A stretch of 64,000 bases of DNA from Ferrovum sp. PN-J185 (GTDB taxonomy: Bacteria > Pseudomonadota > Gammaproteobacteria > Burkholderiales > Ferrovaceae). The translations under genes and the position numbers were made by a program. The notes below the pieces were generated by a model that was given only the letters and a program-made list of their open reading frames with translations, searched no databases and was not told where the DNA came from. Shown piece by piece: positions 2,228-58,378 of the stretch (position 1 is its first letter; each line of letters opens with the position of its first letter). Where the stretch lies: NCBI RefSeq assembly GCF_001581925.1, contig NZ_LQZA01000002.1:186001-250000 (forward strand), written 5' to 3'.

Positions 2228-2503
2228 TTTATCAACTCATAATAGTGCGCAACAATGATGCTGTGCACTATTATGCGGCACAAGAGTTATCCGTCATGTA
2301 AACAAAGAGATACTTTAATTAGTAAATAATTACTCTTTTTAATAGTTAAAAAATCTATTTTTTAACTATCTTAATCATAAAATAATGCGTTAATTGTTTT
2401 CGTCAATAAAGTTGTAACTAATTGTATTATCTCAATTTAAGTAATCAACACTTCACTCTAGTATTTCTCTTTTTACTAAATAAAACAGCCCAAATTATTA
2501 ATC
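2228..2503. other. Intergenic region upstream of porin 2
   Basis: No gene is visible here. The left end holds two NtrC-like sites in tandem (2246-2280). The rest is very AT-rich without recognisable genes or a terminator with a T tract. An 8-base inverted repeat (AATAGTGC at 2241 and GCACTATT at 2265) overlaps the NtrC-like sites and could alternatively be a weak hairpin after glnK copy 1. Confidence 0.5.
2246..2280 (+). promoter_or_regulatory. Two tandem NtrC-like enhancer sites
   Basis: TGCGCAACAATGATGCT (2246-2262) and TGCACTATTATGCGGCA (2264-2280) each match most positions of the NtrC consensus TGCAC-N7-GTGCA. They lie side by side about 260-275 bases upstream of the predicted sigma-54 start for porin 2. 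That is further than typical but workable for an enhancer. The pattern is seen; binding is inferred. Confidence 0.55.
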
Positions 2504-2519
2504 TGGCACGCTCTGTGCT
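2504..2519 (+). promoter_or_regulatory. Sigma-54 promoter of porin2-glnK2-amtB
   Basis: TGGCACG at 2504-2510, four bases, then GTGCT at 2515-2519. This matches the sigma-54 consensus (TGGCACG-N4-TTGCW) with GG and GC spaced exactly 12 bases apart. The expected transcription start is near 2530, about 53 bases before the porin 2 start codon. rpoN and ntrC are both in this window. Confidence 0.8.
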
Positions 2520-2582: not shown

Positions 2583-3836
2583 ATGAAAAAAACTTCACTG
2601 TTAGCATTAAGTAGTCTTTTATTGGTGAGTTCGCCTTTTGTTTATGCGGATGCGACAGCTCCAGCAACCACTGACGCAAGCAAACCGACGTTAGAAACTA
2701 TTTTGTCAAATAGCGGCATCACAGACAAAGAGTATATTGACGCAAGTTATATTGGACACAATCAAACGCCAAATACCAATATTCAAGTAATTGATCCTAA
2801 TAAGAATTCATTTGGTTTACATCAGTTAGGAGTTGTTTTAGCCAAGCAACCTAAAGAGGGTTTTGGTGGATTAGTTAATATTATTGCAGGATCTGATGCT
2901 GGCGTAATTTGTTCTTATGGTATTTGTACTAACAATACAGCTCAACCCTTCAGCGGTGGCAGCCTAGCGCTTCCTCAGGCATTTATTCAGTATGCAAAAA
3001 GTAGCTGGACAACACTACTTGGTAAGTTTCCTTCATTAGCTGGTGCGGAGTCTTTTGATAGTACCCTCAACACTAATATGACGCGCTCTATCCTGTATAA
3101 CCATCAACCTTTTACCCATACAGGTTTACGTATATCAGATGCGCTAACTGGTTCAACAACGTTGACCTTTGGTGTCAACAATGGCTGGGATCAAGCGGTT
3201 GCTCAAACTGGTTCAAAAACCATTGAGCTTGCACTGAACGAAACTTTTACTACTGACACGTCATTGGTGGCCAGTATTTATTCAGGCGATGAAGCTATGC
3301 CGCAATACGGTGCTACCTATACTCCTGGCAATGTAGTACCACTCACCTACACTGCAAATACGATCGGTGGTAGTGCTTTACTTCCTACCAATGGTGGGCG
3401 TAGCGGTTTAAGAAATATTTATGATGTGGTTTTTACCAGTAATCTAACTGCACAAACTACATTTATTGTTGATGCAGATTATGTTACACAACAAAATGCA
3501 GCGCTTTCGGCCACATCAGTGGGGACAGAAACTTATTGGGGTGTAGCGGCTTATCTGAACCATCAATTTAATGATCAATACCGTATTTCTTTACGTGCTG
3601 AACAGTTACGTGATGAACAAGGAGTAGCTATTGCTTACAGCGGTGGCGGGACACCACTTGGTGCGAATACTGTTCGTGAAGTGACTTTAACACTTGGTTA
3701 TGCGCCAGTTAAAAACGTTGAAATCAGAACTGAATTACGTGGTGACCGTGCTGACAATCCAATTTTTGGTACCAGTAACGGTTCTCTTACTCAAAATATG
3801 CTGACTTATGGCGTACAGGGTATTTATAAATTTTAA
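2583..3836 (+). CDS. Outer-membrane beta-barrel porin 2 (OmpL-like, BBP2-type) of the ammonium operon
   Basis: A 417-residue paralogue of the upstream porin: signal peptide ending at about V-Y-A-D (residue 22), beta-barrel strands and a C-terminal Phe (G-I-Y-K-F, same as porin 1). It shares blocks with porin 1 (D-A-S-Y-I-G, H-Q-L-G, N-N-G-W-D, F-T-H-T-G) but has insertions such as residues 112-127. It is the first gene of a likely operon with glnK copy 2 and amtB, behind a sigma-54 promoter. The ribosome site GGGAG lies 5 bases before an ATG at 2578 that encodes only Met-Gln-stop; the porin ATG at 2583 overlaps that stop. Function as an ammonium-related porin is inferred from operon membership. 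Confidence 0.82.
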   Translation: MKKTSLLALSSLLLVSSPFVYADATAPATTDASKPTLETILSNSGITDKEYIDASYIGHNQTPNTNIQVIDPNKNSFGLHQLGVVLAKQPKEGFGGLVNIIAGSDAGVICSYGICTNNTAQPFSGGSLALPQAFIQYAKSSWTTLLGKFPSLAGAESFDSTLNTNMTRSILYNHQPFTHTGLRISDALTGSTTLTFGVNNGWDQAVAQTGSKTIELALNETFTTDTSLVASIYSGDEAMPQYGATYTPGNVVPLTYTANTIGGSALLPTNGGRSGLRNIYDVVFTSNLTAQTTFIVDADYVTQQNAALSATSVGTETYWGVAAYLNHQFNDQYRISLRAEQLRDEQGVAIAYSGGGTPLGANTVREVTLTLGYAPVKNVEIRTELRGDRADNPIFGTSNGSLTQNMLTYGVQGIYKF

Positions 3837-3849
3837 AGTTAATGATTAG

Positions 3850-4197
<348 letters not shown>

Positions 4198-4208: not shown

Positions 4209-5639
4209 ATGAAAATGTTATCAAAGAGCTTAACAGCAGCACTGTTTGTGTTGGCGTTACTAGTTGGCTCACATCAAGCGCTCGCTGATGAAGCGGCTAA
4301 TCCATCCAGCGCAGCACCTGCTGCAAGTGTTACTGCCACTCCTGCTAGCACAGCAGCCCCTGCGGCTCCTGCGGCAGCACCTGCTGCTGCCCCAGCACCA
4401 ACCGCCCCGTTTTTAACGGATTTTAGTAAAATCAATTCAGGTGATACAGCCTGGATGCTCACTTCAACTGCATTGGTATTGTTCATGACAATCCCTGGCT
4501 TGGCCTTGTTTTATGGCGGTATGGTGCGCAAGAAAAACGTCCTAGCAACCCTTATGCAAAGTTTTGCCATTACCTGTTTAGTAACCATACTATGGGTAGT
4601 GATGGGTTACAGTCTGTCTTTCACACCAGGATCAAGTTGGTTAGGTGGATTAGATCGCTTTTTATTGCACGGCATGCTCTATCAACATGATGCGGCAAAA
4701 GTATCTGTGTCTCATATTGCGACAAATGTCCCAGAATCAGTGTATATGATGTTTCAAATGACCTTTGCTATTATCACTCCAGCGCTTATTGCTGGTGCCT
4801 TTGCTGAAAGAATGAAATTCTCAGCTATGATGTTGTTCGTCGCAATTTGGTCTTTAGTTGTATACGCACCTATCGCACATTGGGTATGGGAGCCTAGTGG
4901 TTGGCTAGCTAGCAAGGGAGTATTAGATTTTGCTGGCGGTACAGTCGTTCATATCAATGCAGGTATTGCAGGTCTTGCAGCAGCACTAATGATGGGTAAG
5001 CGTGTTGGTTATGGTAAAGAGCCGATGGCACCACATAACTTAGTATTAACTTTGGTTGGCGCATCAATGCTGTGGGTAGGTTGGTTTGGTTTCAACGCAG
5101 GTTCTGCTGTAGCCGCAGACGGGCGCGCTGGTATGGCAATGGTTGTCACCCAAGTGGCTACAGCCGCAGCTGCTCTTGCTTGGATGTTTGCGGAGTGGAT
5201 TGTAAAAGGTAAACCCAGTGTATTAGGGATCGCCTCAGGTGCCGTTGCCGGTCTTGTTGCTATTACTCCAGCATCAGGTTTTGTTGATACTACGGGCGCG
5301 CTAATTATTGGTATTGCTGCAGGAGCAATTTGTTTTTGGTCAGCCACAACCCTTAAACACAAATTAGGTTATGACGATTCTCTAGATGCCTTTGGTGTAC
5401 ATGGTATTGGCGGAATTGTGGGTGCTCTCCTAACAGGTGTATTTAATATTAAAGAGTTAAGTGGTGTTGATGGTAGTTTGATGACTCAGGCTCTTGGTGT
5501 CGGTGTAACACTTGTCTATGGGTTTGTTATGTCAACGATTATTCTTAAGATAATTGATCTTATCGTAGGCTTAAGAGTGAGCGAAGAAGAAGAAAGAGAA
5601 GGGCTTGATCTGGTTCTTCATGGTGAACGTGTGGAATAG
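4209..5639 (+). CDS. amtB: Ammonium transporter AmtB
   Basis: A 476-residue ammonium channel of the Amt/MEP/Rh family. A signal peptide (cleaved near A-L-A-D, residue 27) is followed by an unusual alanine/proline-rich stretch at about residues 31-66, then eleven membrane helices. The pore histidine pair is seen in G-T-V-V-H-I-N-A-G and in F-G-V-H-G-I-G-G. AmtB conducts ammonium into the cytoplasm and is shut by GlnK, whose gene lies directly upstream. The last gene of the porin2-glnK2-amtB operon, it is followed by a strong terminator. Regulation by sigma-54/NtrC is indicated by the promoter at 2504. The ribosome site GGGGAAAG lies just before the start. Confidence 0.96.
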   Translation: MKMLSKSLTAALFVLALLVGSHQALADEAANPSSAAPAASVTATPASTAAPAAPAAAPAAAPAPTAPFLTDFSKINSGDTAWMLTSTALVLFMTIPGLALFYGGMVRKKNVLATLMQSFAITCLVTILWVVMGYSLSFTPGSSWLGGLDRFLLHGMLYQHDAAKVSVSHIATNVPESVYMMFQMTFAIITPALIAGAFAERMKFSAMMLFVAIWSLVVYAPIAHWVWEPSGWLASKGVLDFAGGTVVHINAGIAGLAAALMMGKRVGYGKEPMAPHNLVLTLVGASMLWVGWFGFNAGSAVAADGRAGMAMVVTQVATAAAALAWMFAEWIVKGKPSVLGIASGAVAGLVAITPASGFVDTTGALIIGIAAGAICFWSATTLKHKLGYDDSLDAFGVHGIGGIVGALLTGVFNIKELSGVDGSLMTQALGVGVTLVYGFVMSTIILKIIDLIVGLRVSEEEEREGLDLVLHGERVE

Positions 5640-20100: not shown

Positions 20101-20883
20101 ATGCGTATTGCCACATGGAATGTTAATTCAATTAAAGTACGCATGGAGCAAGTAGGTGATTGGCTTAATAAAGCTTCTCCCGATGTATTATGTCTGCAAG
20201 AACTTAAATGTGAGAGTAGTCAGTTTCCAGAGAGTTATTTTAAAGAATTAGGTTATCACGCTCTGATTGCTGGCCAGAAGACCTACAACGGTGTGGCGAT
20301 TTTAAGCCGTCATGAGGCACAGGATGTGGTAATTGGTATGCCTAAGTTTGAAGATCATCAACAGCGTCTAATTGCTGCAACAATTAATGATGTGCGCATT
20401 ATTAGTGCATATTGCCCCAATGGCGAAGCAGTCACTTCAGACAAGTATCAATATAAATTAAATTGGTATAGGGCATTAACTGAATATTTAAAAGCTCTTT
20501 TATCTGGCAATGATCAGCTCGTTATTCTGGGTGATTTTAATATCGCCCCACAGGATAAGGATGTTTATGATCCTGAAGCTTACAAAGAGGAAGTCCTGTG
20601 CACCGATGCTGAGCGACAGGCCTTCCAACAATTGTTGTCTTTAGGTTTAGTGGATGCGTTCAGACAGCGCTACCCAGATGACCCTGGATTTACCTGGTGG
20701 CACTATCGTATGAACGCCTTCAAGCGAAAAATGGGCCTTAGAATTGACCATGCATTAATTAGTAACGCTCTACTCCCTCGCTTACAAGATTGTCAGGTGG
20801 ATACTACGCCAAGAGGTAACGAGCGGCCCTCAGATCATGCTCCGTTATTTGTAGATTTATCTTCCTCCAATCCTAACTCTTGA
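20101..20883 (+). CDS. xthA: Exodeoxyribonuclease III
   Basis: A 260-residue enzyme of the endonuclease/exonuclease/phosphatase fold that cleaves abasic sites and removes 3' blocks in base-excision repair. Motifs seen: T-W-N-V-N-S-I at the N-terminus, L-Q-E-L-K (metal Glu), L-G-D-F-N-I-A and the C-terminal S-D-H-A-P-L. The ATG follows the prlC stop codon with no gap. The last 49 bases overlap the end of ntrC on the other strand. Confidence 0.95.
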   Translation: MRIATWNVNSIKVRMEQVGDWLNKASPDVLCLQELKCESSQFPESYFKELGYHALIAGQKTYNGVAILSRHEAQDVVIGMPKFEDHQQRLIAATINDVRIISAYCPNGEAVTSDKYQYKLNWYRALTEYLKALLSGNDQLVILGDFNIAPQDKDVYDPEAYKEEVLCTDAERQAFQQLLSLGLVDAFRQRYPDDPGFTWWHYRMNAFKRKMGLRIDHALISNALLPRLQDCQVDTTPRGNERPSDHAPLFVDLSSSNPNS

Positions 20884-22265
20884 ATTTTACGAGTGAGAGT
20901 ATTCCTTCCCCAACCTAACAATTGGGCTGCCTCTACTTTCTTACCCCCTGTATGAATTAATGCTTGTTCAATGAGAATACGCTCAAAATCAGTAATTAAG
21001 CGATTTAAAATACCCTGCTCCCCTTGGTTAAAAGATGAGGATACTTCGCGTTCAAGTGCGCTTTGCCAGTTATGTGACAAGACTGAGTTGGCTTCTGTCT
21101 GTTCGGATATAGCCGGGGTTTTAATATCCTCAGGTAAATCAGATACGTCCACAGACATACCAGGCGCCATCACACTCACCCAATGACACAGGTTTTCAAG
21201 CTGCCTTACATTACCACGCCATGCTAATCCTTTTAAAAACTGGATGGCGTTGTCAGTAAAGCGCTTAGGTTCAACTTGCAATTCACGGGCGCTTTTTTGC
21301 AGAAAATATCGACTTAATAATGGAATATCTTCACGGCGATCGCGTAGGGAGGGGATGCGGATACGAATAACATTTAAACGATGATATAAGTCTTCACGAA
21401 AGAGTCCTTCATTTACTCGCTGCTCTAGGTTTTGGTGGGTAGCAGCAATGATCCGTACATGACTAGCGATGGGTGAGTGCCCACCGACGCGGTAGAAATG
21501 TCCATCAGATAACACTCGTAATAGTCTGGTTTGTAGATCAGCTGGCATATCACCAATTTCGTCTAAAAACAGAGTACCACCTTCAGCTTGCTCAAATCTT
21601 CCTTTACGTAATGTATTGGCACCTGTAAAAGCACCTCTTTCATGACCGAACAATTCTGACTCTAGTAGTTCTTTAGGAATTGCTGCGGTATTGATAGCAA
21701 TAAAAGGTTTATGAGCTCGTTGGCTATGGCGATGCAGTGCACGAGCAACCAATTCCTTGCCGGTACCGGATTCACCGGTAATCAGAACACTGGCGTTAGA
21801 TTGCGATAATCTACCTATGGCCCTAAATACCTCTTGCATAGCTGGGGCTTGACCAAGGATTTCAGGGGGAAGGTTGTCCTCCATGGCCATATTTTCAAAA
21901 GTAGCGTTTTCATTCATGGCGCGACGAATCAGCTCAATGGCATGATCTACATCAAAGGGCTTAGGTAAATACTCATAAGCACCTCCTTGAAAAGCGCTCA
22001 CCGCACTTTCTAGATCAGAGTAGGCTGTCATAATAATTACCGGCACATGGGGGCAACGTTCTTTTAATTTATCTAAAAGAATTAATCCAGATTGACCCGG
22101 CATTCGTATATCGCTGATGACAATTTGTGGTTGTTCTTCTTCAAGCGCTTCGAGCGCTTCTGGTGCAGAGGAGAAGGTCTTATGAGCGATATTTTCTCGT
22201 GTGAGTGCTTTCTCAAAGACCCATCTTATTGATCTATCGTCATCTACTATCCAAACAGGTTTCAT
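20835..22265 (-). CDS. ntrC: Nitrogen response regulator NtrC (sigma-54 activator)
   Basis: A 476-residue regulator: receiver domain with phosphorylatable Asp52 (V-I-S-D-I-R-M-P), AAA+ domain with Walker A G-E-S-G-T-G-K-E and the sigma-54-contacting G-A-F-T-G-A loop, and a C-terminal Fis-type helix-turn-helix ([12 protein letters not shown]). Phosphorylated NtrC activates nitrogen genes at sigma-54 promoters. Likely targets in this window are glnA and porin2-glnK2-amtB. It lies 27 bases after ntrB and is convergent with xthA, overlapping it by 49 bases. Confidence 0.97.
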
Positions 22266-22292: not shown

Positions 22293-23348
22293 TTAGCTAT
22301 ATTCTGTTTCGGTGATGGGGAGAATGAGATCAAAACAAGTGAATCCTGGACGACTTTCAAATTCCACCATACCATAATGTTGACTAATCAAATTCTGTGC
22401 CAACATTAATCCTAGTCCCGTTCCTCCCTCGCGACCAGAGACCAGAGGTTGAAAAATACGGGGTTGTAGTGAGGTTGGAATACCGGGGCCATTATCAATA
22501 ATTTTGACGACAATACCTAATTTAAACCGTTTTTTAGCCAGAGTAATTTGACGTAATATGCGTGTTTGTATTTTAATTGTGCCTTGAGTTTGAAATGCTT
22601 GAGCGGCATTACGTACAATATTTAGTATGGCTTGAATAAGTTGTTCACGATCAGCTAAAAACTCTGGGATACTGGTGTCATAATCTCGTTGTATCGATAC
22701 CCGCTTAGGAAACTCAGCTAAGGTGACACTGCGAACTCTTTCAAGTACCTCATGAATATTAAGAGGTGCAGTTTGGTGAAGACGGCTATTGGGGCTTAAC
22801 ATACGATCAAGTAATAACTGTAAGCGCCCTGCTTCATTCTTAATAACTTCTGTATATTCCCTAAGCTCCACTTGATCCAATTCTTTTTCTAATAATTGAG
22901 CAGCACCCTTAATGCCACCTAAAGGATTTCTTATTTCATGCGCCAGGTTACGTATTAGCTGACGATTAACCTCTTGATCTTGAATGATTTTTTCTTCTTT
23001 TTCTATTTTCGCTCGTTGGTTAATCGGTCTAAACTCAAGAAGAATATTTACTGAATCTTCTAGTGGTGTACCAGTACAAGTCAGAACATATTTGTCATGA
23101 GCCGTCGAATGGAAAGTCCATTCATGCTCAATAAACCCCATTTTTTTTTCAAAGGATAGGCTACAGTCTTCTAGCAGTCTTTCAATATCGGCGAGTACTG
23201 AGTCTAGTCGATATCCGAGAATATTTTTACGGCTTACCGCAAACAGATCTTCAGCTGCAGTGTTAATGAAAACGATATTAAATTCTTTGTTGAGTACAAC
23301 CACCGCTGTAGTGATGAGATCAAGACCTCTATAATCGTCGTTTTTCAT
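22293..23348 (-). CDS. ntrB: Nitrogen sensor histidine kinase NtrB
   Basis: A 351-residue cytosolic histidine kinase: N-terminal PAS domain (about 10-110), dimerisation domain with phosphorylated His137 (L-A-H-E-I-R-N-P-L-G-G) and C-terminal ATPase domain (N-box I-V-R-N-A-A-Q-A, G1 D-N-G-P-G-I-P, G2 G-G-T-G-L-G-L). PII protein controls whether NtrB phosphorylates or dephosphorylates NtrC. It is placed between glnA and ntrC as in enterobacteria, with a hairpin between it and glnA. Confidence 0.96.
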   Translation of the reverse strand: MKNDDYRGLDLITTAVVVLNKEFNIVFINTAAEDLFAVSRKNILGYRLDSVLADIERLLEDCSLSFEKKMGFIEHEWTFHSTAHDKYVLTCTGTPLEDSVNILLEFRPINQRAKIEKEEKIIQDQEVNRQLIRNLAHEIRNPLGGIKGAAQLLEKELDQVELREYTEVIKNEAGRLQLLLDRMLSPNSRLHQTAPLNIHEVLERVRSVTLAEFPKRVSIQRDYDTSIPEFLADREQLIQAILNIVRNAAQAFQTQGTIKIQTRILRQITLAKKRFKLGIVVKIIDNGPGIPTSLQPRIFQPLVSGREGGTGLGLMLAQNLISQHYGMVEFESRPGFTCFDLILPITETEYS

Positions 23349-23447: not shown

Positions 23448-24857
23448 TTACAGACTGTAGTACATCTGGAATTCTAAAGGATGAGTTGTCATACGGAACA
23501 AGGTTACTTCTTCCATTTTTAATGCAATATAAGCATCAATCATTTCGTTGGAGAATACGCCACCACGAGTTAAGAACTCACGGTCTTTGTCCAATGCTTC
23601 AAGCGCTTCATCTAAGGACGCAGCTGGTGATGGGATCTTGGCATCTTCTTCAGGAGAGAGATGGTACAAGTCTTTATCAGATGCTTCACCAGGATGGATT
23701 TTGTTTTGAACGCCATCTAAGCCTGCCATCAACATGGCCGCAAAAGCCAAGTATGGGTTAGCAGTAGGATCTGGGAAGCGAATTTCCACACGACGTGCTT
23801 TATCACTTTGAACAAATGGAACACGAATTGCAGCAGAACGGTTACGTGCTGAGTAAGCCAATTTAACTGGGGCTTCAAATCCTGGTACCAAGCGCTTATA
23901 AGAGTTGGTGCTAGGGTTGGTTAACGCATTCAATGCCTTAGCGTGTTTGATAATACCGCCGATGTAGTACAAGGCAAACTCAGAAAGACCTGCGTAACCA
24001 TTGCCAGCAAAGAGGTTTTTACCATCTTTCCAAACTGATTGATGCACGTGCATACCAGAACCGTTATCGCCAACGATTGGTTTTGGCATAAAGGTAGCGG
24101 TTTTACCATATGAATGGGCAACGTTATGAACAACGTATTTTAAAATTTGTGTCCAGTCAGCACGCTGAACTAAGGGTGCAAAACGGGTACCGATTTCACA
24201 TTGCCCAGGTGCTGCAACCTCGTGATGATGTACTTCTACAGGTACACCCATATCTTCAAGTGCGAGACACATGGCAGAGCGAATATCTTGCAATGAATCG
24301 ACTGGGGGAACAGGGAAATAACCGCCTTTAACAGCAGGACGGTGACCCATATTACCGCCATCATATTCTTTGTTAGATGACCAAGGAGCTTCTTCTGTTG
24401 AAATTTTTACGCTGCAACCTGACATATCAACATGCCAACTGACAGAATCAAAAATAAAAAATTCAGGTTCTGGTCCAAAATAAGCTACATCACCCACACC
24501 ACTTGCTTTTAAATAAGCTTCGGCGCGTTTGGCAATCGAGCGTGGATCACGATCGTAACCTTTACCATCTGATGGCTCGATAACATCGCAAGTTAAAATG
24601 AGTGTTGCCTCATCCATGAAAGGATCAATATTAGCAGTGGTTGCATCAGGCATTAATAACATATCAGAGGCTTGGATACCTTTCCAACCTGCGATAGATG
24701 AGCCATCAAAAGCATGACCTTCAGTGAATTTGCTTTCGTCAAATGCACTTATTGGAACTGATACGTGCTGTTCTTTACCACGGGTATCGGTGAAACGAAA
24801 GTCAACAAATCTGACTTCGTTTTCCTTAATCATTTGCATGACCTTTTCAACTGCCAT
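23448..24857 (-). CDS. glnA: Glutamine synthetase type I
   Basis: A 469-residue dodecameric enzyme that makes glutamine from glutamate, ammonia and ATP, the main entry point for ammonium. The glycine-rich F-D-G-S-S-I near the N-terminus, the K-P[10 protein letters not shown] block and N-R-S-A-A-I-R-V are present. Tyr398 in D-L-Y-H-L-S-P-E-E is the adenylylation site of class I-beta enzymes, so control by GlnE is likely. Upstream are a sigma-54 promoter and several NtrC-like sites. A ribosome site (AGGAG) precedes the ATG. Confidence 0.98.
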
Positions 24858-24950: not shown

Positions 24951-24966
24951 AGCACTTTGTATGCCA
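24951..24966 (-). promoter_or_regulatory. glnA: Sigma-54 promoter of glnA
   Basis: Read on the minus strand: TGGCATA, four bases, GTGCT, with GG and GC 12 bases apart. The predicted start is near 24940, giving a leader of about 83 bases before glnA. NtrC-like sites lie 90-180 bases further upstream. Confidence 0.8.
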
Positions 24967-25029
24967 AGCAATAATATTAGCATTCTTTCACTTTTGCCGG
25001 GCTTTTTATATAGTTTACAAAATATTTAC

Positions 25030-25124
25030 GCACCAAAATAAAACATTTGCAGTTTATTTGCGCCAAAATAATGCATTTTAGTTAATTAAGCATACTTTTT
25101 TTGTTATAAAACCATTTTGGCGCG
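25030..25124. promoter_or_regulatory. NtrC-like enhancer cluster between glnA and the rhodanese gene
   Basis: The best site is TGCGCCAAAATAATGCA (25059-25075), 14 of 17 matches to TGCACCAAAATGGTGCA. Flanking it are a half-site GCACCAAAAT (25030-25039) and AAAACCATTTTGGCGCG (25108-25124). Centres lie roughly 95-175 bases upstream of the predicted glnA start, the usual range for NtrC enhancers. The sequences are seen; binding is inferred. Confidence 0.65.
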
Positions 25125-56974: not shown

Positions 56975-58378
56975 TTAAATAATTTTACGTTGACTAGCAG
57001 GATATATTTGCATGGACTCCCTATATTTAGCTACTGTTCGCCTGGCAACAACTATCCCTCTCTCATTCAGAATATCTGAAATTTGGTTGTCTGATAAAGG
57101 TTTTTTTGGATTTTCCTCATTAATTAATTGCTTGATTAGGGCTCTAATTGAAGTGGATGAGGCTGTCCCTCCTTGGTCTGTTGAAACATGACTACTGAAG
57201 AAATATTTTAATTCAAATATGCCTTTAGGACTAAACATAAATTTTTGTGTTGTAACCCGTGATATGGTTGATTCATGTAAACCAACTAAATCGGCGATTT
57301 CTTTTAGAATCATAGGTTTCATAGATACTTCACCAAACTCAAAAAAGTCTTGCTGTTCGTCCACTATAGCTTGAGATACTTTTAAAATCGTATCAAATCG
57401 TTGCTGTATGTTTTTTATTAACCATCGCGCTTCTTGAAGTTGAGTGGTTAGCGATGAATGGCCCTCATTATTTTGTAATAAATTGGCATAGAGTTGGTTG
57501 ATTTTTAGACGTGGCAACACTTGTGGATTAAGCTGAACAACCCATTTTTTGTTATATTTCTTAACAATAACATCAGGTATTATGTACCTTGTATCTTGTT
57601 GAAAAAAATGTTCCGCAGGCTTTGGGTTGAGTTGAGTAATTAATTGGATTGCTTGTTTTAATTGAACGTCATTTATTTTAAGTGCTTTTTTCAGTTTTAG
57701 GTAATCACGATTTCCTAATAATGCCAAATAGTTTTGGCATATGCTCACAGCTAAACCATACACTGGATGAGTTGTATAAAGTTGGTGGAGCTGAAGAAGT
57801 AAGCACTCTGACAGATTGGCTGCACCAATACCCACTGGATCAAGAGTTTGTAATAATTTTACGCATACTTTAATTTCTTCAATTTCTATTTCAGCTTCAT
57901 GAGGAAATTGAGCTTGTATTTCTTCTAAAGAAATATCTAAATAACCTGAGTCATTAATATTCGCGATAAGTTGACTAATGATCTGCCCATCTTTTTCTGA
58001 TAAGGGTATTAATCTTAACTGTTCTTTTAAATGGTCAATTAAGCTCGGTTTATCTTCAATACTAAAAAAATCGTCATCTCGTTCGTTCGATGATGACGAT
58101 TTAGAATAATGAGTATCCCAGGCAGAGTCTAAATTGTTATCTAGACTGGTTTCGTTCAATTCATCACTATGAGAGGATGACTCTTCATTTGAATGACTAT
58201 CCTGTGTTGTAGGAGAGTCATTTGTATCCTGAAGTTCTAATAAAGGATTGTCTCTAACAGCCTCTTCGATTTCTTGGTTAAGTTCAACGGTTGATAATTG
58301 TAATAGTCTAATTGCTTGCTGAAGTTGCGGAGTGAGCGCTAACTGTTGAGAAAGCTTAAGCTGTAAGTTTTGTTTCAT
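56975..58378 (-). CDS. rpoN: RNA polymerase sigma-54 factor RpoN
   Basis: A 467-residue sigma factor. Region I (L-K-L-S-Q-Q-L-A-L-T-P-Q-L-Q-Q-A-I) binds activators, an acidic linker (about 50-115) follows, then core-binding and helix-turn-helix domains, and the RpoN box A-R-R-T-V-A-K-Y-R-E near the C-terminus recognises the -24 element. It works with NtrC at the promoters before glnA and porin 2. It follows lptB by three bases. Confidence 0.98.
   Translation of the reverse strand: MKQNLQLKLSQQLALTPQLQQAIRLLQLSTVELNQEIEEAVRDNPLLELQDTNDSPTTQDSHSNEESSSHSDELNETSLDNNLDSAWDTHYSKSSSSNERDDDFFSIEDKPSLIDHLKEQLRLIPLSEKDGQIISQLIANINDSGYLDISLEEIQAQFPHEAEIEIEEIKVCVKLLQTLDPVGIGAANLSECLLLQLHQLYTTHPVYGLAVSICQNYLALLGNRDYLKLKKALKINDVQLKQAIQLITQLNPKPAEHFFQQDTRYIIPDVIVKKYNKKWVVQLNPQVLPRLKINQLYANLLQNNEGHSSLTTQLQEARWLIKNIQQRFDTILKVSQAIVDEQQDFFEFGEVSMKPMILKEIADLVGLHESTISRVTTQKFMFSPKGIFELKYFFSSHVSTDQGGTASSTSIRALIKQLINEENPKKPLSDNQISDILNERGIVVARRTVAKYRESMQIYPASQRKII

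Follow-up and report, generated by a model that had tools for sequence, protein, structure and literature searches.

Predicted NtrC/sigma-54 control of one of two porin-glnK units in Ferrovum sp. PN-J185

A porin gene, glnK and amtB stand in a row in Ferrovum sp. PN-J185 behind a sigma-54 promoter element and a distant NtrC site. It is very probable that NtrC and sigma-54 drive this porin2-glnK2-amtB unit through a looped enhancer about 240 bp away, and that the slot of a second porin, porin1, has lost both elements and is probably NtrC-independent. Computation directly yielded the elements together with their conservation, the regulators, the lack of both elements before porin1, and the larger spacing. 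Under nitrogen limitation, phosphorylated NtrC would bind at 2264–2280, perhaps with a partner at 2233–2249 or 2246–2262. The roughly 240 bp of intervening DNA would loop out, NtrC would trigger open-complex formation by the sigma-54 polymerase held at 2504–2519, and porin2, glnK2 and amtB would be transcribed together. The unit represents the nitrogen-regulated slot widespread among betaproteobacteria (outer-membrane barrel, glnK, amtB), with a BBP2 porin as the barrel.

The doubled porin-glnK set

The window, the whole 64-kb stretch of DNA that was analysed, starts with bmfp on the minus strand, followed by porin1, glnK1, a 355-bp gap, porin2, glnK2, amtB and metH.

257–466, minus: BMFP-family gene (bmfp), the divergent neighbour of the porin-glnK slot in most relatives
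467–668, plus: bmfp-porin1 gap, 202 bp; the ancestral promoter place, its sigma-54 and NtrC elements apparently lost
669–1865, plus: porin1, BBP2 family (PF07642, E 3.1e-53), orthologue of the single porin of genome G030
1889–2227, plus: glnK1, P-II match, first 329 bases identical to glnK2
2228–2582: glnK1-porin2 gap, 355 bp
2583–3836, plus: porin2, BBP2-family outer-membrane beta-barrel (PF07642, E 6.5e-51), placed in the porin tree
3859–4197, plus: glnK2
4209–5639, plus: amtB, ammonium transporter (ammonium transporter family profile match)
20835–22265, minus: ntrC (TIGR01818, 706.9 bits, cut-off 558.6)
22293–23348, minus: ntrB (NF008293, 322.3 bits, cut-off 240)
23448–24857, minus: glnA, the internal control (TIGR00653, 668.7 bits, cut-off 429.15)
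56975–58378, minus: rpoN (sigma-54), passing the cut-off of one or more curated models

Both porins belong to the BBP2 family, scoring 174 and 181.6 bits against a curated cut-off of 26.2 (PF07642). The genome has a single sigma-54 gene, the rpoN inside the window, three P-II genes (glnK1, glnK2 and one elsewhere) and three genes of the HU/IHF family. NtrC and a GlrR-like protein are its only strong sigma-54 activators. The gene of the GlrR-like activator (G000:C1 near 368000; L002, L010) adjoins a sigma-54 site that precedes an ORF by 27 bases. A distant second ammonium-transporter homologue (33% identity) is found at G000:C1:474950–476098 of the same genome.

The order porin1-glnK1-porin2-glnK2-amtB lies on one contig in PN-J185 and in G029; in the third genome with the doubled set, G031, glnK1 is split between two contig ends and the gene order is inferred. 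In the porin tree, the porin2 proteins of the three genomes group with the lone porin of G015 and then with the porins of genus 4, and porin1 groups with the porin of G030. Because of this placement, the two porins are, by phylogeny, old paralogues, and a simple recent tandem duplication of porin-glnK was rejected for the porins on the same grounds; for glnK it may apply.

The glnK copies (1889–2227 and 3859–4197; L088, L089, L090) appear homogenised despite being flanked by porins that are old paralogues. In PN-J185 the leading 329 of 329 bases are identical, and all differences, five in number, fall within the last ten. The parts present in G031 are identical (101/101 and 127/127 bases), and the G029 copies match at 285 of 289 aligned bases, its first copy having lost its start and proper end. 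Between genomes, identity is about 96% for the window and G031 and about 86% for the window and G029. This pattern fits within-genome homogenisation by gene conversion, that is, concerted evolution. In G011, contigs (L103 and others) end inside the 3' end of the porin before glnK, and several porin fragments lie elsewhere, suggesting repeated copies there as well.

The NtrC site and its distance from the promoter

The candidate elements in the porin2 gap and those of glnA are listed here, with offsets counted from the first base of the NtrC site to the first base of the -24/-12 element.

2504–2519, plus: sigma-54 -24/-12 promoter element of porin2-glnK2-amtB (TGGCACGCTCTGTGCT), one mismatch, matrix score 19.1
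2264–2280, plus: best-supported NtrC site (TGCACTATTATGCGGCA), 240 bp before the -24/-12 element, matrix score 10.5
2246–2262, plus: other NtrC-like site of the sequence-only reading, weak (score 7.8), without counterpart in G031 or G029
2233–2249, plus: alternative second NtrC site, 31 bp before 2264–2280; only the right half (GTGCG) fits, score -1.5
2238–2275, plus: inverted repeat with 14-bp arms (2238–2251 and 2262–2275) that overlaps the NtrC sites and may form an RNA hairpin behind glnK1
24951–24966, minus: sigma-54 element of glnA (TGGCATACAAAGTGCT)
25059–25075, minus: NtrC site of glnA, at the usual offset of -109
25029–25045, minus: weaker NtrC site of glnA, offset -79

A genome-wide search with the bare NtrC consensus, allowing up to two mismatches, gave no enrichment (369 sites against 375 in the reversed control); since it was uninformative, conservation was used instead. 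A matrix was built from 133 sites, picked by consensus, in the upstream regions of 100 slots from other genera (consensus TGCACCAAATTGGTGCA), related and some near-copy sequences being included. Among these 100 regions, which had been selected for having a sigma-54 element, 88 carry an NtrC site with at most two mismatches between -140 and -56; in a control stretch of the same width, 3 of 100 do.

A prior reading of the DNA from sequence only had proposed tandem NtrC-like sites at 2246–2280, with a matrix search as a check. That search upheld 2264–2280: its score of 10.5 ranks fourth among window positions, behind glnA's own site (13.5) and two positions inside the exodeoxyribonuclease III gene. 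Of 2000 randomly drawn 350-bp pieces of the window, 1.4% reach 10.5. The site is of the TGCAC-N7-GTGCA type, with a perfect left half, a degenerate right half and 2 mismatches in the 10 core positions. Its counterparts score 7.2 at -239 in G031, where the right half is even poorer, and 16.6 at -265 in G029. The other member of the proposed pair, 2246–2262, did not hold up, having three core mismatches, rank seven (7.8) and no conservation in the sister genomes. Instead, all three genomes share a TAGTGC right half-site that precedes the main site by 31, 30 and 29 bases (PN-J185, G031 and G029, respectively), so placed that the position of 2233–2249 is conserved, with counterparts scoring -2.5 in G031 and 5.9 in G029. 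Many homologous promoters have two NtrC sites about three helical turns apart; here the second is weak whichever position is taken. Taken as a predicted site, 2264–2280 is well supported. The two higher matches outside glnA, at 20393–20409 and 20599–20615 within the exodeoxyribonuclease III gene beside ntrC, are two of the window's top three.

A single sigma-54 site in the genome fits the consensus perfectly (G000:C5 near 39937); it precedes a gene for an oxalate/formate-type MFS antiporter (L007, 189–1454, minus). This site has TGCACTATTATTGCGCC at -123, which shares the eleven bases TGCACTATTAT with 2264–2280, and this antiporter promoter (C5:39937) is likely a second NtrC target.

The best NtrC site lies between -140 and -56 in 91 of the 100 relatives and at -200 or farther in only 4. 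The porin2 sites fall outside this usual range, at -240 in PN-J185 as well as at -239 in G031 and -265 in G029, and the distance of about 260 bases that had been called unusually large is indeed so: the centre of 2264–2280 is about 258 bp from an expected start near 2530. Offsets of the 91 relatives cluster near -110, -100, -90, -79 and -69, as if helix-phased, and R peaks at 0.72 for a period of 10.3 bp. A period of 10.5 bp gives R 0.71, where 2000 uniform simulations reach at most 0.30, the sequences behind these offsets being related and distinct offsets alone giving a best R of 0.40. The -240 of porin2 is off the common helical phase, and the sites of the three genomes stand at varied phases. 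NtrC is not known to have a strict requirement for its distance to the promoter, and an enhancer this distant may no longer need helical phase. DNA bending had also been raised; an IHF-like motif at a conserved place was not found in the three porin2 gaps of PN-J185, G031 and G029.

We consider it unlikely that NtrC activates a real sigma-54 promoter here through another or a non-specific site, with 2238–2275 folding in the RNA into a hairpin to protect or terminate the porin1-glnK1 transcript. The 14-bp stem begins 11 bases past the glnK1 stop (hairpin z -3.6) and is kept in G031 (z -4.0), where one pair is changed on both sides from C-G to T-A. However, there is no T run, the stem is gone in G029 (z -0.2) while the NtrC site there is stronger, and TGCACTATTAT is seen again at the antiporter promoter. 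The hairpin and the NtrC site may also both be real.

The sigma-54 element before porin2 and its counterpart before porin1

The 355-base gap ahead of porin2 and the near-consensus -24/-12 element within it were both found as had been described. TGGCACGCTCTGTGCT differs from TGGCACGN4TTGCW at one position, and has the GG/GC dinucleotide spacing of such promoters; nowhere else in the 64-kb window does a sequence match with one mismatch or none. The whole genome has 12 sites with 0–1 mismatch, of which three are, by ORF context, intergenic and ahead of an ORF (L007, L010 and 2504–2519). The weak -12 (GTGC) is frequent among homologous promoters. A matrix search for sigma-54 sites, proposed along with that for NtrC and run with a hand-written matrix, gave 19.1 in the porin2 gap and at best 1.1 in the 202-bp porin1 gap. 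G031 has the same element before porin2 and G029 a similar one (score 14.2), and it stands at -79/-80 in all three genomes. Across 59 porins scanned, the two of PN-J185 included, scores of at least 12.5 were found in 42 of the 45 that precede glnK versus 2 of the 14 that do not; the latter two have a moderate match (13.3) and best NtrC scores of 7.3 and 3.1. On these comparisons the element at 2504–2519 is real. A small terminator hairpin was considered for the same bases and rejected, the element being conserved as promoter sequence.

The three slots among the 45 that lack the element are the porin1 slots of PN-J185, G031 and G029, where the sigma-54 score upstream of porin1 never exceeds 2.0. 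The two porin pairs thus differ in control elements across the three genomes, as the sequence-only reading had anticipated. Its degenerate sigma-54-like match at 568–582 was rejected as a site because the porin1 gap tops out at 1.1 against 19.1 at porin2. G030, which belongs to this genus, carries one porin only, the porin1 orthologue, with an NtrC site at -100 and a sigma-54 score of 18.5. Its bmfp-porin gap aligns with that of PN-J185 (z 4.1, 0/300 shuffles) and of G031 (z 3.0, 1/300), with no significant alignment to that of G029 (z 0.7, 70/300), so the alignment of a decayed sigma-54 site rests on two genomes. In the multiple alignment, the sigma-54 element of G030 faces a stretch ending GGTTATACT, and its NtrC site faces TGCACAATTTTAATATG. 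Since other genera carry both elements in the bmfp-porin place, their loss before porin1 in the doubled lineage is the simpler reading. One further candidate was noted in this gap:

602–607, plus: weak sigma-70-like -10 TATACT; the former sigma-54 place reads TATACT or TATAAT

Its -35 is poor (9/12 matches for the pair), and sites of this kind show no excess over shuffled sequence (11 versus 13.3), so a sigma-70 promoter before porin1 is a suggestion only.

With its NtrC and sigma-54 elements lost, porin1-glnK1 is probably expressed independently of NtrC. A weak NtrC-like match upstream of porin1 in G031 (5.1) would suit nitrogen control of this pair as well, through an element that the matrices miss, but the uniformly low sigma-54 scores upstream of porin1 in all three genomes make this decidedly unlikely. 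Control of the porin2 promoter by the GlrR-like protein (C1:367685) in place of NtrC is very improbable: it is the sole other strong sigma-54 activator in the genome, but NtrC-type sites accompany the promoter in relatives, the operon contains glnK-amtB, and the sigma-54 site (L010) next to the gene of the GlrR-like protein lacks an NtrC-like one. Most weak sigma-54 matches in the genome are chance, because 225 matches with up to two mismatches stand against 142 in the reversed control, but that the one-mismatch, intergenic element at 2504–2519 is such a match is scarcely credible given its fixed position in three genomes and its presence in nearly all homologous slots.

NtrC/sigma-54 control of porin2 with loss before porin1 leaves room for a regulatory division of labour, which we put forward tentatively, at somewhat below even chances. 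Porin2, as an old paralogue, would hold the nitrogen switch, its enhancer displaced by about 130–160 bp; porin1 would have lost the enhancer and the sigma-54 core; and gene conversion would equalise glnK, yielding one GlnK from one induced and one basal unit.

Relatives and known systems

In an order-wide survey, 62 of 69 glnK loci had a sigma-54 element within 2.5 kb upstream, versus 9 of 69 on the opposite strand as a control. An AmtB match was present in 107 genomes; the survey covered 79 of them, for the most part those whose AmtB was most similar, plus a genome identified by published primers (below). Of these 80 loci, 7 lacked glnK and 4 had too little upstream sequence, and these were left out. 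A long slot ORF was lacking at 19 of the 69. Of the remaining 50 proteins, 49 were scanned, L177 being dropped with a glnK only 36% alike, and 40 were Gcw_chp, 8 BBP2 and 1 neither (L226). Near-copies were kept in the sets, that of the porin slots included (four pairs more than 90% alike; L054 and L167 are the same sequence), and L037, which by its length appears to be the same contig as G031:C4, was not counted. Gcw_chp and BBP2 are thus two barrel families in the same nitrogen-regulated slot (L151–L230).

The porin-glnK-amtB arrangement itself is widespread and already known in this bacterial group. What differs here from the Herbaspirillum operon is the doubled set, the loss of one control region and stretching of the other, the BBP2 porin in the slot and the near-identical glnK copies. 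A literature search, with most subscription journals outside its reach, found neither a BBP2 porin in a glnK-amtB operon nor conversion of glnK. The findings indicate that these bacteria generally place an outer-membrane barrel gene ahead of glnK-amtB under nitrogen control, and that this is no peculiarity of Herbaspirillum. The locus offers a natural experiment, with a like enhancer and promoter at about 110 versus about 240 bp and a promoter without sigma-54 where the set doubled, and it makes testable the need of nitrogen-starved cells for an extra outer-membrane pore beside the ammonium transporter.

To our knowledge, the glnK-amtB operon of E. coli has no porin gene. It is alike in its NtrC and sigma-54 control, being listed in the NtrC-RpoN regulon in the part of PMC3224663 available. 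The portions of the P. phymatum and Azoarcus papers that were available name amtB with no porin before it.

The closest system is nlmAglnKamtB of Herbaspirillum seropedicae, described in the accessible text of PMC3023670 as NtrC-dependent and 21-fold higher under nitrogen limitation; together with conservation, this backs the earlier proposal that porin2-glnK2-amtB is under nitrogen control. A genome containing both published glnK-flanking primers (forward exact, reverse with one mismatch), and on that basis taken to be Herbaspirillum, likewise has a membrane protein gene, glnK and amtB in a row under sigma-54 and NtrC elements, with a divergent bmfp gene. Its slot protein is a Gcw_chp protein (NlmA; NCBI 'TorF family putative porin'), whereas those of PN-J185 are BBP2 porins and not NlmA; it has one slot where PN-J185 has two; and its NtrC site is 117 bp upstream of the -24/-12 element rather than 240. 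The glnA-ntrB-ntrC promoter of PN-J185 itself resembles that of porin2 in the type of its -24/-12 element and of its NtrC half-sites, but has NtrC at the usual -109 and -79.
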